Shown here: one piece after another, positions 11,984-44,478 of the stretch
Position numbering within the stretch: the first letter of the stretch is position 1
How the letters are laid out: every line of letters starts with the position of its first letter
NCBI RefSeq assembly: GCF_000296465.1
Contig: NZ_JH815204.1
Span: 434,001-498,000 of the forward strand
From: Barnesiella intestinihominis YIT 11860
GTDB taxonomy: Bacteria > Bacteroidota > Bacteroidia > Bacteroidales > Barnesiellaceae
Direction of reading: 5' to 3'
DNA length: 64,000 bases
Notes under the pieces: generated by a model
What the model was told of the DNA's origin: nothing
What the model saw: only the letters and a program-made list of their open reading frames with translations
The model's database searches: none
Program-made: the position numbers and the translations under genes

Positions 11984-12178
11984 TTAATAAGATTCCGGGA
12001 TTACAAAACAAAGGACTAAATAAACCAGCAGGGCGAGGCCTATTGTCCCGATAGATAACAGTACACAGATGATACGGACCACGGTAGGGTCTATACCTAA
12101 ATATTCCCCTATACCTGCGCATACGCCGCCTAACATGCGGCCGTTGCGGGGACGGGTAAGTTTCTTTATCGTATTCAT
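11984..12178 (-). CDS. PspC-domain small membrane protein
   Basis: A 64-residue protein consisting of a single PspC domain. A basic N-terminus leads to the signature MLGGVCAGIGEYLGIDPTVVR and then one transmembrane helix (about residues 38-60). PspC proteins take part in envelope-stress signalling in enterobacteria; stand-alone short versions in Bacteroidetes have no proven role. It is the promoter-proximal gene of the pspC-uvrB-fhs-ygiQ-S9-ABC operon and lies directly downstream of two tandem promoter-bearing repeats. Confidence 0.85.
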   Translation of the reverse strand: MNTIKKLTRPRNGRMLGGVCAGIGEYLGIDPTVVRIICVLLSIGTIGLALLVYLVLCFVIPESY

Positions 12179-12203
12179 TTTATGTTTGATAATTTTTCAG
12201 ATA

Positions 12204-12234
12204 CAAAGATAGTGAAAGGTGAGAGCAGAGACAA
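12204..12234 (-). promoter_or_regulatory. Promoter of the pspC-uvrB operon
   Basis: TTG at 12234-12232, a 20-base spacer, then TATCTTTG at 12211-12204, all on the minus strand and ending about 25 bases before the pspC start. This is a textbook Bacteroidetes sigma-ABfr promoter, contained in the repeat. Confidence 0.75.
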
Positions 12235-12281
12235 ACGGAAATGAAATTTCCGATTGGGCTATGCCGAACCGCATCCTATTT
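12204..12281 (-). repeat. Dispersed promoter-bearing repeat, copy 1
   Basis: A 76-78-bp unit reading leftwards. Its 3' end is TATCTTTG (complement at 12204-12211), preceded at 20 bases by TTG (complement at 12232-12234), a full Bacteroidetes promoter that points at pspC-uvrB. A near-identical unit in the opposite orientation is at 36517-36592 and a diverged one at 12293-12371. The region between 12179 and 12621 is otherwise non-coding. Confidence 0.8.
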
Positions 12282-12292
12282 TCGCTACTGTG

Positions 12293-12371
12293 CAAAGATA
12301 GTGAAAGGTGAGCGTAGAGGCAAACGGAAATCATATTTTCGACTTGGCTATGCCGAGCCTCCTCCTATTTT
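12293..12371 (-). repeat. Dispersed promoter-bearing repeat, copy 2
   Basis: A tandem, diverged copy of the 12204-12281 unit in the same orientation, again ending in CACTATCTTTG with a TTTG 20 bases before it. It gives the operon a second possible promoter about 90 bases further upstream. The remaining non-coding stretch to 12590 is AT-rich and shows nothing else I can name. Confidence 0.75.
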
Positions 12372-12591
12372 GTATTTCCGAAGATAATAAGACAAAACGA
12401 GAGAACCGGACAAAACGCACCAGTCTGTTTTTCATAAAGGCCAGTGTGAAAATATGAAAGATAATATATTTGCTGATGCTGACAAAAAAAGTTGGTCGAT
12501 ATAAACTTTATTATTACCGATAAATAAGGAGTCTTTATCCCGGTCATCGTTAAATTTCTCTTATTTCCTTTCTATATTCGTGTGAAATCTC

Positions 12592-22443: not shown

Positions 22444-22633
22444 AATACTCTCTTTTTATGTCTCTTCTGCAAATTTACTTTTTTCTTTTGAGAAACCCAT
22501 AAAGAACATTTTTGTTTTGTTATACGGTGTATAGGACAATAAATATCTATTAATTCGAGGCTTTTTCGGTCTTTATTCGTACCTTTGCGATATATGTGAG
22601 GAACAGGACGTGCTTGGGCATAAGCGATAAAGC

Positions 22634-22664
22634 TTGTTTCTGTTCTTGGTTTACACTATCTTTG
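22634..22664 (+). promoter_or_regulatory. Promoter of the amidase-MCE genes
   Basis: TTG (22634-22636), a 20-base spacer and TATCTTTG (22657-22664), 56 bases before the start codon: a full Bacteroidetes promoter. A TACCTTTG about 80 bases upstream is another, weaker candidate. Confidence 0.7.
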
Positions 22665-22720: not shown

Positions 22721-23860
22721 ATGAAGCATTCATATTTCAGCCGGAGGTTATTGTCGGTTTTTATGGCTTTCGCTTTGGGACTTTCCGTCTTGCTGGCCAA
22801 AGATTTTGTCGTGGTGATCGATGCCGGTCATGGCGGGCACGATCCCGGCTCTCTCGGCAGCAAGGCGAAAGAGAAAAACATCAATTTGGGAGTTGCCTTG
22901 AAATTGGGACGTCTGATTGAAAATAATATGCAAGGTGTGAAGGTGGTCTATACCCGTAAAAAAGATGTTTATTTGACCTTGCAAGAGCGAGCTAATATAG
23001 CTAATAAGGTTCAAGGCGATTTGTTTATTTCTATTCATACCAATTCTTTGGATAAAAAGTCCCCTAATCGTAGGAAAGTCGCCGGTGCTTCTACTTGGAC
23101 ATTGGGGTTACACAGAAGCAAGGAGAATTTGGAAGTCGCAAAACGGGAAAATTCCGTTATATATTTGGAGAATGACTTTTCGACTCGTTATGAAGGATTC
23201 GATCCGAATTCGACCGAGTCGTATATTATTTTTGAATTCATGCAGTATAAACACATGGAGCAGAGTATAAACTTTGCTTCGGATATACAACGTGAATTTG
23301 TTTCGACTGCCGGCCGAGTGGATAGAGGTGTAAGACAGGCTGGATTTTGGGTACTCGCTAAAACGAGTATGCCTGCGGTTTTAGTGGAGCTCGATTTTAT
23401 TTGCAATCCGACGCAGGAGAGATTTTTGAATTCCGAATCCGGTCAGGAGAAAATGGCAAAGTCTATATACAATGCTTTTGTCAAATATAAATCAGACTAT
23501 GACCGCAAGCAAAATGCCGGCAAAAGGGTAGAGGAGTCACCGTCTTCTTCCGCCGTTGTATCGCCTGATAAAAAGACTCAAACGGGTGATTCGAATGTGG
23601 AAGTCTCTGAACAAGCCGAGAAATCCGGGGTTACTTATTATAAAGTACAGTTCATGGCTTTGCCTCGGAAATTGCCGGCTAATTCCAAAGAATTTAAAGG
23701 GCTTTCTCCTGTCGAATATTATAAAGACGGAGGAATGTATAAATACACCTATGGAAAATCTACCGACCGAGACGAAATACAGAAACAATATAAAAAAGTA
23801 AAATCTTTGTTTCGCGATGCCTTTATCATAAAGTTCCGTGATGGAAAACGGGTCTATTGA
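22721..23860 (+). CDS. N-acetylmuramoyl-L-alanine amidase with C-terminal SPOR-like region
   Basis: A 379-residue exported amidase. After a signal peptide (about 1-25) comes the Amidase_3 catalytic domain (28-250): VIDAGHGGHDPG with the first zinc histidine, SIHTNS with the second, and PAVLVELDF with the catalytic glutamate. A Ser/Lys-rich linker leads to a C-terminal SPOR-like domain (about 305-379, YYKVQFMA...) that probably binds denuded septal glycan. It cleaves peptide stems from peptidoglycan during division. The MCE gene follows 32 bases later. Confidence 0.92.
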   Translation: MKHSYFSRRLLSVFMAFALGLSVLLAKDFVVVIDAGHGGHDPGSLGSKAKEKNINLGVALKLGRLIENNMQGVKVVYTRKKDVYLTLQERANIANKVQGDLFISIHTNSLDKKSPNRRKVAGASTWTLGLHRSKENLEVAKRENSVIYLENDFSTRYEGFDPNSTESYIIFEFMQYKHMEQSINFASDIQREFVSTAGRVDRGVRQAGFWVLAKTSMPAVLVELDFICNPTQERFLNSESGQEKMAKSIYNAFVKYKSDYDRKQNAGKRVEESPSSSAVVSPDKKTQTGDSNVEVSEQAEKSGVTYYKVQFMALPRKLPANSKEFKGLSPVEYYKDGGMYKYTYGKSTDRDEIQKQYKKVKSLFRDAFIIKFRDGKRVY

Positions 23861-34077: not shown

Positions 34078-34107
34078 CAAAGATAGTGCAAACGAGGGCA
34101 GGAGCAA
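34078..34107 (-). promoter_or_regulatory. Promoter of cysK in a repeat-like segment
   Basis: On the minus strand TTG (34107-34105), a 19-base spacer and TATCTTTG (34085-34078), 22 bases before the start codon. The segment GCAAACGAGGGCA between them matches the tail of the dispersed repeat seen before sdaA. Confidence 0.75.
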
Positions 34108-34161
34108 ATTAATTTGATGATATCAAGTGGAGCTTATATTTGTTTTAGTATTGAAAGTCTG

Positions 34162-36398: not shown

Positions 36399-36516
36399 GA
36401 TTCCGGTCGTTTTTGTTCTTTAAGCAAAACTACAAAAAAAGCCGATTGCTGCCGAGATGAATGAGTTAAGATTTGAGATGGTTCCTGAAAACTTCTTTAT
36501 CTTTGTGAGTACGAAG

Positions 36517-36592
36517 ATAGGATGCGGTTCGGTATAGCCAAATCGGAAATGGGGTTTCCGTTTGTCTCTGCTCTCACCTTTCGCTATCTTTG
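36517..36592 (+). repeat. Dispersed promoter-bearing repeat, copy 3
   Basis: A 76-bp unit almost identical to the reverse complement of 12204-12279. It ends TATCTTTG 20 bases before the next gene, and another TATCTTTG (36498-36505) sits just before it. Confidence 0.8.
36562..36592 (+). promoter_or_regulatory. Promoter of the thioredoxin-fold lipoprotein gene
   Basis: TTG (36562-36564), a 20-base spacer and TATCTTTG (36585-36592), all inside the repeat copy and 20 bases before the ATG. Confidence 0.75.
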
Positions 36593-36611
36593 TAGTTACA
36601 AAGTATAGAGT

Positions 36612-37796
36612 ATGAATAAGGTATATCATTGGATATTTTTTCTGCTATTGCTCGCCGGTTGTCAGGATAGAACGGATTCGTCATACGTGATTACAGGAAA
36701 AGTGGTTAACTCGCTGACTGACGGGAATGTCGTTTATTTGTCTCATAGTAACGGAGATGAATTGGTGAATTTGGACAGTGCGATAGTCGATGGCGGAGTT
36801 TTTTCTTTTCACGGAGTACAGGAGGAACCGATTATGGCTTATCTGCGGTTTAACCGTTATCTCGATTCTTTGGCTGTGCCCGTGTTATTTGTGTTGGAAA
36901 ATGGAGCGATGGAGGCGGTGATGGATACTTCGTATTCGAGTGTCGCAGGGACGGAGCAGAATAACATATTCGAGGAATATAAACGGGAGGCGTATCGCCT
37001 CGATTCTTTACGCCGTTGTTTGCATAGCCATTACGTCGAACAGGTGGAGAAGCGTATGATGGATGCCGGTTTGGAACAATCGATGTGCGATGAGGATTTT
37101 CGTTTGAGCAGCCAAGAGGAGAAGCTGGCCTACCGGTTTATTCGACGGAATCATTATTCACCGGCTGCGATATGGGTGCTGGAACAGATGCAAAGCCGTT
37201 TCGATGAAGATGAGTTGCGAAGCCTTTTGTCGGGATTCGGTGGGCGAAGCAAGAATGCGCAGATATTGTCCGATATTTCTTTGCGCTTGCGTAATGCCGA
37301 TAAAGTCGAGCCGGGAAATCCGTATGTAGATGTTCCATTGATAGAGTATTCGGGACGGAAAGAGAATCTGTCGGGATATATAGGATATGCGAGATATACG
37401 GCTATTGGCTTTTGGCGTTCGGATAGCGAGCCTTCTTGCCGGGATATGACGAAATTCGGAGAACTGTATCGGGCGTATGGTTATCGGGGCGCGACCTTTT
37501 TGTCTGTTTCGTTGGATAAAAAACGGGATATATGGCGGGAAAAAGTGAGAACTTTGGGACTGCCTTCACATCACTGTGCGGCTGCGGAACCCGATGTAAT
37601 CGAAACCCGATATGCTCTGGTGTCGGTTCCCAATTTTATGCTTATCGCCCCCGATGGGTCCATCGATTCCCGCAACCTGACGGTGACACAGTTGGAACAG
37701 AGGCTGCAAGAACTGTTACCCTATCGGGCGAGAAGAGATACTGCTGTGTCGTCTGTGCCGGATACCACTGGATTTGTGAAACGATCGTCAATATAG
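36612..37796 (+). CDS. DUF4369/TlpA-like lipoprotein with degenerate redox site
   Basis: A 394-residue lipoprotein: signal peptide with lipobox LLAGC, a DUF4369 N-terminal domain (ITGKVVNSLTDGNVVYLSH), a helical middle, and a thioredoxin/AhpC-TSA-like C-terminal domain (about 240-370) with the cis-proline-type segment VSVPNFMLIAPDG. Relatives carry a WCGPC site after the first strand. Here that place reads FWRSDSEPSCRDM, so the first cysteine is lost and only one remains. It is therefore unlikely to be a normal disulfide reductase. Such proteins sit in the periplasm and are numerous in Bacteroidales. Confidence 0.8.
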   Translation: MNKVYHWIFFLLLLAGCQDRTDSSYVITGKVVNSLTDGNVVYLSHSNGDELVNLDSAIVDGGVFSFHGVQEEPIMAYLRFNRYLDSLAVPVLFVLENGAMEAVMDTSYSSVAGTEQNNIFEEYKREAYRLDSLRRCLHSHYVEQVEKRMMDAGLEQSMCDEDFRLSSQEEKLAYRFIRRNHYSPAAIWVLEQMQSRFDEDELRSLLSGFGGRSKNAQILSDISLRLRNADKVEPGNPYVDVPLIEYSGRKENLSGYIGYARYTAIGFWRSDSEPSCRDMTKFGELYRAYGYRGATFLSVSLDKKRDIWREKVRTLGLPSHHCAAAEPDVIETRYALVSVPNFMLIAPDGSIDSRNLTVTQLEQRLQELLPYRARRDTAVSSVPDTTGFVKRSSI

Positions 37797-41218: not shown

Positions 41219-41335
41219 ACTCGTTTAGTTTAACGTAATTAGTATAATGTTTTTTATTTGCGGGGGCAAAGGTAGGTATTATTTTGTAATTATGCAATGA
41301 TTTATACTCGTTTTTTGAGGGAACATTCACTCTTA

Positions 41336-41527
41336 GAAGCTGTTTTAAATTTATTGAGAAATAATATTATCATTGCAGGCAGGTATGTTCCGGCCATATT
41401 GCGCCCCTGTCTCGCATCTTGAATTCCTTGATTTTTGTCAATAGCCCGCTATTGACTGCCTATCTCGGACTCCGATCTGCTTCAACATAGGTCTCAATCT
41501 GTCTCGGAATAAATTTAAAACAGCTTC
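41336..41527. mobile_element. MITE-like element, copy 1 (192 bp)
   Basis: A 192-bp non-coding element with perfect 19-bp terminal inverted repeats (GAAGCTGTTTTAAATTTAT and its complement), flanked by TA on both sides. It contains an inner 8-bp hairpin (GTCAATAG/CTATTGAC). A second copy of exactly the same length and about 96% identity (8 differences by eye) is at 42900-43091, same orientation. It lies 32 bases after the stop codon of the MFS gene and about 120 bases upstream of rpsF. No transposase is encoded. Confidence 0.8.
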
Positions 41528-41559
41528 TACTGTATTTTGCATATTCTGTGGTTTTAGTA

Positions 41560-42711
41560 TCACATCTTCTTCGGCTCGTATTTTTTGTAAAACAGCGTGA
41601 GGAGGATAAACCCGACGAAGGCGAGGGGCGCTCCTATCAGGGCGGGATATTGATATCCCAGTCCGGCTTGCAGGGGTAGACCTCCGATATATGCGCCGAT
41701 GGCATTGCCGAGATTGAAAGCCACTTGTATACAGGCTGCTCCCAGTAACTCGCCTCCTTTGGCAAAGTGAATGATAGAGATTTGTTGAGGACTCGACACA
41801 GCGAATAGCCCGGCTGTACAAAGGCACATGAGCAGGGCTGTGAGCCAGTTGATATGGGCTACGAAGAAAATGCCTAATAATGCCATAAAGAGTATGAATT
41901 GGGTAGAGGCGGCTACACGTCCGGGAGTATATTTGTCGGACAACTTCCCGCCCAAGAGATTCCCGACTACCATACCGAATCCGGCCAATACCATCAATAG
42001 GGTAATGCTTTCTGTGGAAAATCCGGAAACTTTCGTAAGGAGGGGATTTATGTAGCTATACCAACAAAATACGCCTCCGTTTCCCAACATGGTAGCTCCC
42101 AAAATAAGCCACGGGGCTCCGGTTTTCAAGAAACGGAATTGCCCTTTGAACCCTGTATCGGGTAGTCCTTCGACTTGGGGAACCCATTTCCAGATGTAAT
42201 AAAGTATGATGATACCCCATACTCCTACCAGCATGAATGTGAGTCTCCACGATAATAACGTGCTGAGCGATGTTCCTAACGGGACTCCGAACAGGTTGGC
42301 GATGGTCATGCCGGCAATCATGATAGAGACTGCCTCGGAGCCTTTTCCCTTGTCGGCAAGTTTCTCCGCGACAACCGATGCAACGCCGAAATAGGCTCCA
42401 TGTGGTAACCCCGATATGAATCGGGCGACAAGCATAGTCCAGTAGTTGGGCGACAGTGAGGCGAAGATGTTTCCTACCATCATGATCGCCACCAATCCTA
42501 ACAAAATATTTTTTAACGGGAGTTTACGGGCGAGGGTAAGCATGGGCGCTCCTGCGCAAACACCGAGAGCATAGGCCGAAATCAAGTGTCCGGCGGTCGG
42601 GATACTGATGTGCAGATCGGCTGCTACATAAGGCAGTATAGCCATCATGACAAATTCGGCTATACCTAATCCTAATGTGCCGAATGCCAGTGCGATAAGA
42701 CTCTTTTTCAT
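41560..42711 (-). CDS. MFS efflux transporter, AraJ-like
   Basis: A 383-residue transporter with 12 hydrophobic segments. The start resembles the AraJ/NepI arabinose- and purine-efflux group: GTLGLGIAEFVMMAILPYVAADLHISIPTAGHLISAYALG. Motif A is GGKLSDKYTPGR. These proteins export sugars, purines or drugs by proton antiport. The gene is bracketed by two directly repeated MITE-like copies, 32 bases downstream and about 190 bases upstream. A GTCCTTTG upstream on the minus strand, with TTTG 21 bases before it, may serve as a promoter. Confidence 0.88.
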   Translation of the reverse strand: MKKSLIALAFGTLGLGIAEFVMMAILPYVAADLHISIPTAGHLISAYALGVCAGAPMLTLARKLPLKNILLGLVAIMMVGNIFASLSPNYWTMLVARFISGLPHGAYFGVASVVAEKLADKGKGSEAVSIMIAGMTIANLFGVPLGTSLSTLLSWRLTFMLVGVWGIIILYYIWKWVPQVEGLPDTGFKGQFRFLKTGAPWLILGATMLGNGGVFCWYSYINPLLTKVSGFSTESITLLMVLAGFGMVVGNLLGGKLSDKYTPGRVAASTQFILFMALLGIFFVAHINWLTALLMCLCTAGLFAVSSPQQISIIHFAKGGELLGAACIQVAFNLGNAIGAYIGGLPLQAGLGYQYPALIGAPLAFVGFILLTLFYKKYEPKKM

Positions 42712-42899
42712 TTCTATTTAATTACCTATTGAGCAGTGAGGCCGCGTGATTTTCGCGGACCTTCTGAAAAAATCGGGTGCAAAGGACGTGAATAAGACTG
42801 TTTTGTCCAAAATAATCGACTTATTTTTTTCGTGAGAGACTAAATTTTTTGGCATCTTTTTTTAAATGCGAACAGATAGTATCTGTCGTGTAGTATTTA

Positions 42900-43091
42900 G
42901 AAGCTGTTTTAAATTTATAGAGAAATAATATTATCATTGCAAGTAGGTATGTTCCGGCCATATTGAGCCCCTATCTGGCATCTTGAATCCCTTGATTTTT
43001 GTCAATAGCCCGCTATTGACTGCCTATCTCGAACTCCGATCTGCTTCAACATAGGTCTCAATCTGTCTCGGAATAAATTTAAAACAGCTTC
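42900..43091. mobile_element. MITE-like element, copy 2 (192 bp)
   Basis: The second copy, same orientation and length as 41336-41527, with intact 19-bp terminal inverted repeats. The left flank is TA; the right flank is TT rather than TA, so the duplicated target would have one change. It occupies most of the non-coding gap between the MFS gene and hsp20; the rest of the gap (42712-42899) shows only the MFS promoter region. Confidence 0.8.
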
Positions 43092-43117
43092 TTATTGAAA
43101 TGAAGATATTGCAAAAA

Positions 43118-44335: not shown

Positions 44336-44395
44336 ATTGCAGATGAAAAGGCGCAAATTTCTATTCGGTAAGGTTGTTTTGAAAATTGTTTGAGC

Positions 44396-44478
44396 TATCT
44401 TTGCGCAGGATGCGAAAATAGGCTGCATTCGGCAAAGTCAAGCGAGCTTGCTTTTGCCCTCATTTGCACTATCTTTGC
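44396..44478 (+). repeat. Dispersed promoter-bearing repeat, copy 4
   Basis: Starts and ends with TATCTTTG (44396-44403 and 44470-44477). The middle (AATAGGCTGCATTCGGCAAAG) is a diverged version of the segment in copies 1-3, and the end shares GCCCTCATTTGCACTATCTTTG with the cysK upstream region. Confidence 0.7.
44448..44477 (+). promoter_or_regulatory. Promoter of sdaA
   Basis: TTG (44448-44450), 19-base spacer, TATCTTTG (44470-44477), about 90 bases before the sdaA start. A second -7 box lies at 44396-44403. Confidence 0.65.

Follow-up and report, generated by a model that had tools for sequence, protein, structure and literature searches.

What are the short, similar sequences that stand directly upstream of unrelated genes in Barnesiella intestinihominis, and how did they come to carry what reads as a promoter? 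A tandem pair of them precedes pspC-uvrB in the stretch of DNA that was analysed here as a whole, 64,000 nucleotides of contig NZ_JH815204.1 (the window), and a reading of the letters alone (the sequence-only reading) had proposed a mobile or amplified promoter family rather than independent promoters. The answer that we favour, with a probability of about two in three, is that these are MITE-like, non-coding and quasi-palindromic repeats of ~81 bp that insert at -7 boxes, where the new promoter would replace the native one; copying by homology between boxes is the least certain part of this reading.

Copies in the window and the family to which they belong

The gene-proximal half of the tandem pair is a repeat unit at 12203-12283 on the minus strand, which scores 88.5 bits against R1, an 81-position profile of the repeat; the upstream half (12293-12371, minus strand) scores 79.5 bits, and the two are 86% identical over 79 nt. 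In the proximal unit, a TTTG (12232-12235) is followed after 20 nt by the right box TATCTTTG (12204-12211, minus strand), and from this box to the ATG of pspC there are 25 nt. The first gene downstream is pspC (12013-12178, minus strand; Pfam PspC, 7e-20), followed by uvrB with its UvrB domains. Just upstream of the pair, TATCTTCG (12379-12386, minus strand) is a possible decayed native -7 box. Another unit, at 36513-36593 on the plus strand (90.1 bits), has its TTTG at 36561-36564 and its right box at 36585-36592, 19 nt before the ATG of a gene with a DUF4369 domain (36612-37796, plus strand). The TATCTTTG at 36498-36505 (plus strand), which now lies upstream of this unit, is the native -7 box of that gene as judged from empty congener sites, for example in G003, where the identical box follows a similar left flank.

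With these scores, the units at 12204, 12293 and 36517 do belong to one family, as the sequence-only reading had it. Its further unit at 44396 is better described as a distant relative: position 44396-44403 (plus strand) holds a TATCTTTG box that immediately precedes the sdaA unit, and the unit itself, of a second type (44414-44477, plus strand; 19.1 bits, E 0.0028), has a right box of its own at 44470-44477 and a right arm that matches the second type with one mismatch. From this right box to the ATG of sdaA (44569; SDH domains) there are 91 nt, out of register with the congeners. The shorter relative that had been seen before cysK (34078-34116, minus strand; PALP domain in the gene) does have a right arm of the second type (34078-34101) with a box at 34078-34085, and the 3' arm of its palindrome CAAATTAATTTG (34105-34116) is the -33 TTTG, but it is absent among the R1 matches listed. 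The right arm shared by cysK and sdaA (CTGCCCTCRTTTGCAYTATCTTTG) has 12 matches in the genome at up to three mismatches, five of them exact, and its reversed control has none. A third right-arm type, TTGTTTCTGTTCTTGGTTTACACTATCTTTG, lies at 22634-22664 (within the stretch 22600-22664, plus strand) upstream of an N-acetylmuramoyl-L-alanine amidase gene at 22721, with five matches genome-wide and none for the control.

The spacing that had been claimed, an end box with TTG 19-20 bases before it, holds as TTTG-N20-TATCTTTG in the three main units, TTTG-N19 before cysK and CTTG-N19 at 44470. The adjoining genes are, by domain annotation, unrelated to one another. Each unit had also been said to point at its nearest gene; the unit at 12293, being the upstream tandem member, points at the next unit instead.

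A separate repeat of 196 bp is present in the window as two direct copies (41333-41528 and 42897-43092) flanking an MFS transporter gene (41560-42711). It has perfect terminal inverted repeats of 20-22 nt (AGAAGCTGTTTTAAATTTATT) and at least 30 further similar stretches in the genome, none among the congener matches listed, and it looks like an ordinary MITE.

The alignment behind R1 comprises 36 genome copies over 81 columns, with a mean column identity of 89% and one single-base gap in one row. Scoring the best 150 of 2912 candidates in the window genome gave at least 140 matches at E<=0.1 and at least 106 at E<=0.001, both lower bounds; the 79 copies of 40 bits or more group into 60 arrays, so that an element of 81 positions is short, non-coding and of high copy number, as a MITE is. 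The repeat is carried by all nine Barnesiella genomes searched, with at least 41 to at least 132 matches (E<=0.001) in each of the eight congeners. In the wider order, under stricter filters and with the best 15 candidates scored per genome, a match at 1e-5 was found in at least 18 of 295 genomes (four of them Barnesiella) and in 10 of 183 genera. The box TATCTTTG itself occurs 500 times in the genome, compared with 195 times for its reversed control. With the 60 arrays, this excess puts the repeats beyond chance.

Within the window, Rfam returned no match at the gathering threshold, and a known RNA family was rejected on that count. The open-licence literature searched, as represented by the beginnings of its abstracts, yielded no description of the repeat family and none of an insertion aimed at a -7 box. 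A single copy with 80.5% identity lies on the record of a 46-kb Phocaeicola massiliensis plasmid (L347; OY726013.1 16434-16515), a possible route between hosts. A phage element was rejected, two exact patterns each giving no match in viral contigs. Nine records of a 'phages' collection did match, and the seven examined are UNVERIFIED faecal contigs labelled Bacteriophage sp., from human faecal samples from Mexico (MT836672, MT835643, MT839645, MT837279, MT836520, MT836408 and MT839026; L340-L346). They match chromosomal loci of the window genome at 97.4-99.2% over 1.4-4.2 kb and are therefore taken as bacterial DNA of another strain; these 'phage' records are probably mislabelled bacterial contigs.

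The consensus unit consists, in order, of GAAGATAG, GATGCGGTTCGGCATAGC, a palindrome whose 3' arm enters the -33 TTTG, 20 nt, and CTATCTTTG. Taken whole, the unit forms an imperfect palindrome, agreeing with its own reverse complement in 58 of 87 columns; the consensus scores 67 against its own reverse complement, compared with 24.5 (sd 9.3) for shuffles, and this self-comparison reveals terminal inverted repeats of the kind expected of a MITE. TTG-N18-22-TAnnTTTG is present in 34 of the 36 aligned units in the forward direction and in none of the 36 in reverse. It agrees with the sigma-A promoter of Bacteroidetes, for which the available part of PMC7366714 gives TAnnTTTG at -7 and TTTG near -33, and that of PMC9723704 likewise the -7 consensus TAnnTTTG. 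The mirror half reads as a promoter in none of the 36 units by the strict pattern and in 22 of the 36 with a relaxed box. By consensus, the forward half of the unit is a complete promoter, and presumably an active one.

Congeners have other central palindromes in an unchanged layout (CGGAAAT/ATTTCCG versus TGAAAAC/GTTTTCA), and types within one genome differ too. A form of ~66 bp in a genome of another family (L140 and L154, G036) has a minimal palindrome, CAAATAAATTTG, around the -33 box. A central hairpin scoring at least 7 occurs in 48 of 70 units of the window genome, 11 of 34 in the congeners and 6 of 24 in the wider order, compared with 3.7% of shuffles (19 of the 147 units had no score). 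Folded as single-stranded DNA, seven of eight stretches have z values of -1.8 to -3.6, and the unit at 44394 has +0.10. Across the whole predicted RNA fold covariation is nil (+0.02); its base pair 4:76 is G-C in 17 units, U-A in 10 and something else in 9.

Position and direction relative to promoters

The box TAnnTT[TC][GA] lies just upstream of the first unit in 55 of the 60 arrays, compared with 2.8 on average and 9 at most for random positions in the same loci (2000 draws). A box on either side, as a target site duplication would leave, is seen in 55 of the 60 arrays, yet the right one belongs to the repeat itself, and at three loci read by eye the left one has the letter of the element; equal short loops on both sides, looked for by eye as a sign of target duplication, are not general.

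Orthologous sites in the congeners allow the state without a unit to be read directly. For 13 loci, picked by hand rather than at random (most are single units with a gene start nearby), 98 of 104 congener orthologues were located (the six not found are all at L183), of which 29 are filled and 69 empty by scan; the 69 gave no weaker match either with three query types. TAnnTTTG occurs within 130 nt of the start in 68 of the 69 empty orthologues, compared with 11% of random 130-nt stretches of the window. At the gene at 36612, six congeners have the ordinary box only (in G003, CTTCTTTATCTTTG and then the leader) and G007 is filled, the site in G002 not being resolved; in the window, a similar flank and box are followed by one unit and then by a leader nearly as long as in the empty congeners. 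The congener loci of pspC-uvrB (L084-L087 and L109) have TATCTTTG before pspC and no unit by scan, L109 giving only a 10.4-bit partial match. The sdaA site is filled in G003, G005 and G007 and empty in G002, G006 and G008, with weak partial matches in G001 (10.1 bits) and G004 (10.7 bits). The left box at L178 has been lost in G005 and G006. Such presence or absence of copies at orthologous sites bears out the earlier proposal of a mobile or amplified family.

Neighbouring units within arrays are head to tail in 19 of 19 cases in the window genome, and in 29 of 29 in two further sets combined. No array lies inside a called gene (0 of 60; calls from our own codon-usage caller, its threshold lowered so that pspC was included), and the next called gene is co-directional in 55 of the 60 arrays, the exceptions being three with an opposite gene and two without a called downstream gene. 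By context, 28 arrays lie between divergent genes, 27 are in tandem contexts and point with the genes, two point against them, one is convergent and two are uncalled downstream; where the genes run in the same direction, the count is thus 27:2 toward transcription (p=1.6e-6). The two further sets were picked by score, L079 and L153 being dropped as overlapping duplicates. The congener set has 25 arrays (and one more at a contig edge): 16 divergent, eight tandem with the genes, none against, and one without an upstream call; all 25 point at a called gene. The other-family set has 17 (and three more at contig edges): six divergent, 7:1 in tandem contexts, one convergent and two partly called, with 14 of the 17 pointing at a gene. 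The sequence-only reading had named random orientation as the objection to be met; with the genomic matches collected and aligned, orientation is non-random, and the objection fails because the tandem contexts are 27:2 here and 8:0 and 7:1 in the further sets.

The distance between the last box and the start codon was compared gene by gene. In the congeners alone, it differs between filled and empty sites by at most 6 nt in 10 of 12 genes (the exceptions being L182 and L183), with a median shift of 2 nt compared with 25 by permutation (p=4.5e-4). In the window genome alone, the register is kept within 6 nt at 7 of 14 loci (median 6.5 vs 14, p=0.014); out of register are L182, L183, L189, L193, L195, L209 and sdaA, the last by 71 nt. 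For all filled sites pooled, 11 of 14 are within 6 nt (median 1.25 vs 19.75). The test does not include pspC-uvrB, L206 in the window genome, which lacks a strict box, or lip in G002, whose start was not located. By eye, the window genome still shows its native left flank and box at L189 and L193, where only the leader is shorter. As a rule the congeners keep the register, and in the window genome half of the tested loci do so.

The upstream box, the boxes at empty sites and the register comparison together place the units at promoters. On the sequences compared, units sit directly 3' of a pre-existing -7 box and end in a -7 box of their own, and the repeats are insertions aimed at promoters. 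The earlier wording, that they deliver complete promoters to unrelated genes, is not supported as it stands: the genes did not lack promoters, and each unit goes in at a -7 box that is already there and brings another as its end.

Partial copies may reflect use of the new box. Among the R1 matches listed, by our count, 32 partial ones keep the right end and one the left end only, although most of the 32 score below 25 bits, a range that may include ordinary promoters or other types; of those reaching 25 bits, nine keep the right end and none the left end only. At L229, the congeners G003, G004 and G007 retain the promoter half only, truncated and ending in TATCTTTA, not in TTTG. Retention of the right end would fit a new promoter in use.

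How a unit may be copied and what else could explain the pattern

Under the preferred reading, a unit would insert 3' of a -7 box TAnnTTTG, nearly always along transcription, and its own 3' end would form a new TAnnTTTG. The new box would usually assume the register of the native one, as in filled congeners and at 7 of the 14 tested loci in the window genome, and head-to-tail arrays would arise when a unit enters the box of a previous copy. Transcription of the gene would then rely on the TTG-N19/20-TAnnTTTG carried by the last unit, and the upstream native promoter, now redundant, may decay. Copying, the least certain step, would proceed through short homology between donor box and target box and need no dedicated transposase; template switching or single-strand annealing could serve as routes, and the hairpins, perhaps together with a box melted in open promoters, would assist.

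The letters of the boxes bear on this step. Left and right boxes share their fourth letter in 38 of 45 first units (C/C 20 and A/A 18; the remaining pairs number 7), an association with a Fisher p of 1.3e-7 on the 42 C/A cases. At L178, L189 and L193, three loci where the congener letter differs from the element's (left flank aligned by eye), the empty congener boxes are mostly TATC, TATT and TATT, and the window genome has TATA on both sides of the unit. Since the left box has the element's letter at all three, it appears to have come with the unit. At L206 the left box differs from those of the congeners and also lacks the letter that the internal arm would predict. A single 69-bp unit, bounded precisely by the boxes, distinguishes two strains, through either gain or loss. 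Taken together, the letter matches, the strain difference and the presence of a Y1 transposase in one of nine genomes, with no unit near it, favour homology copying between boxes.

A MITE- or REP-like element could instead be mobilised in trans by a dedicated transposase, for example by an IS200/IS605-like single-strand enzyme, which would be guided by the internal GAAGATAG arm and cut 3' of TAnnTTTG. This alternative is possible, though on balance we doubt it. It would explain insertion 3' of a fixed short target, a box-like right end, the hairpins and the head-to-tail arrays and, as its main point, an internal arm that is complementary to the box and covaries with it (3.9e-5), which pure homology copying does not require. 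Against it, Y1_Tnp (PF01797), the transposase class searched, was found in one of the nine genomes although all nine carry the repeat (of the eight genomes without Y1, seven are drafts in 30-70 contigs and G008 is a single contig), the sole Y1 locus (L177, IS200-like) has no unit in its 3.3 kb, and the left-box letters follow the element at the three loci read by eye. RAYT as a general mobiliser was rejected on the same count of Y1. Among the R1 matches listed, no outward pair of right ends flanking an ORF, as in a parent transposon, was seen by eye. Of the two, we incline to short-homology copying from one -7 box to another rather than to a dedicated transposase.

The repeat might also be a co-regulatory cassette, its palindrome at the -33 box serving as the operator of a dimeric regulator and wiring genes into a regulon. 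The 3' arm of the central palindrome does enter the -33 TTG in the units examined, yet the palindrome varies between congeners and between types within one genome, so a fold suits it better than one operator, and the copies in the window adjoin unrelated genes; we regard this explanation as improbable. Less probable still is a MITE that inserts anywhere and either way, with selection retaining the promoter-giving copies only: selection could yield both the intergenic location and the orientation, and half of the tested loci of the window genome are out of register, but such a MITE would leave unexplained why 55 of 60 arrays directly follow a -7 box and why 10 of 12 congener genes keep the register. 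Independent ordinary promoters that merely look alike can practically be dismissed, because, for all that box and spacing are those of a normal Bacteroidetes promoter, the 89% mean identity over 81 columns reaches far past the boxes and orthologous sites are empty.

The usual effect of a mobile element on promoters is to damage or rewire them. One that targets the -7 box and supplies a new box in its stead could spread through promoters at little cost, and such spread would fit the load of at least 41-132 matches per genome in the nine Barnesiella genomes. A bolder version of homology copying, which we offer tentatively and think rather less likely to be true than false, is that of a promoter that spreads by itself, its own end doubling as the target: the quasi-palindromic unit would copy itself from box to box by box homology, needing no transposase of its own. 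In several Bacteroidales families it would overwrite the promoters of genes unrelated to one another, and host transcription would come to depend on a selfish repeat as the native promoter decays. Promoter turnover in gut Bacteroidales becomes traceable site by site, and the question that is raised is what copies an 81-bp unit between 8-bp boxes.

Comparison with known systems

The Correia repeat enclosed elements of Neisseria (CREE, nemis) are, in the available part of PMC2649163, likewise short non-coding inverted repeats, often upstream of genes, that have no known mobiliser and can create sigma70 promoters at their ends. As points of difference, the same source gives a length of 69-157 bp with 26-bp Correia repeats, and reports target duplication and the disruption of some coding sequences. 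A minority of CREE sites have a promoter completed by the flanks, with 18 Black and 15 Snyder candidates counted in strain FA1090 (PMC2649163), whereas nearly every aligned Barnesiella unit has a whole promoter and most arrays stand at an existing -7 box. The ends of the Barnesiella unit are GAAGATAG and CTATCTTTG.

Porphyromonas gingivalis belongs to the same phylum as Barnesiella. Its BrickBuilt MITE is likewise always intergenic and has promoter activity by reporters in E. coli, and it differs in its 23-nt tandem repeats between leader and tail and in its bidirectional transcription (PMC4596501); targeting of -7 boxes does not figure in the available part of that paper. REP elements with RAYT transposases are likewise high-copy, small hairpin palindromes, marked by GTAG or CGTC tags of which the GTAG kind is tied to Y1 transposases (available part of PMC3733652), whereas the consensus ends of the Barnesiella repeat have neither GTAG nor CGTC and Y1 occurs in one of nine genomes, so that both marks are missing. 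The end of each unit matches the Bacteroidetes sigma-A promoter, which in the accessible text of PMC7366714 and PMC9723704 is a consensus and not a repeat. Judged by its sequence, the Barnesiella repeat works like a promoter-bearing MITE.
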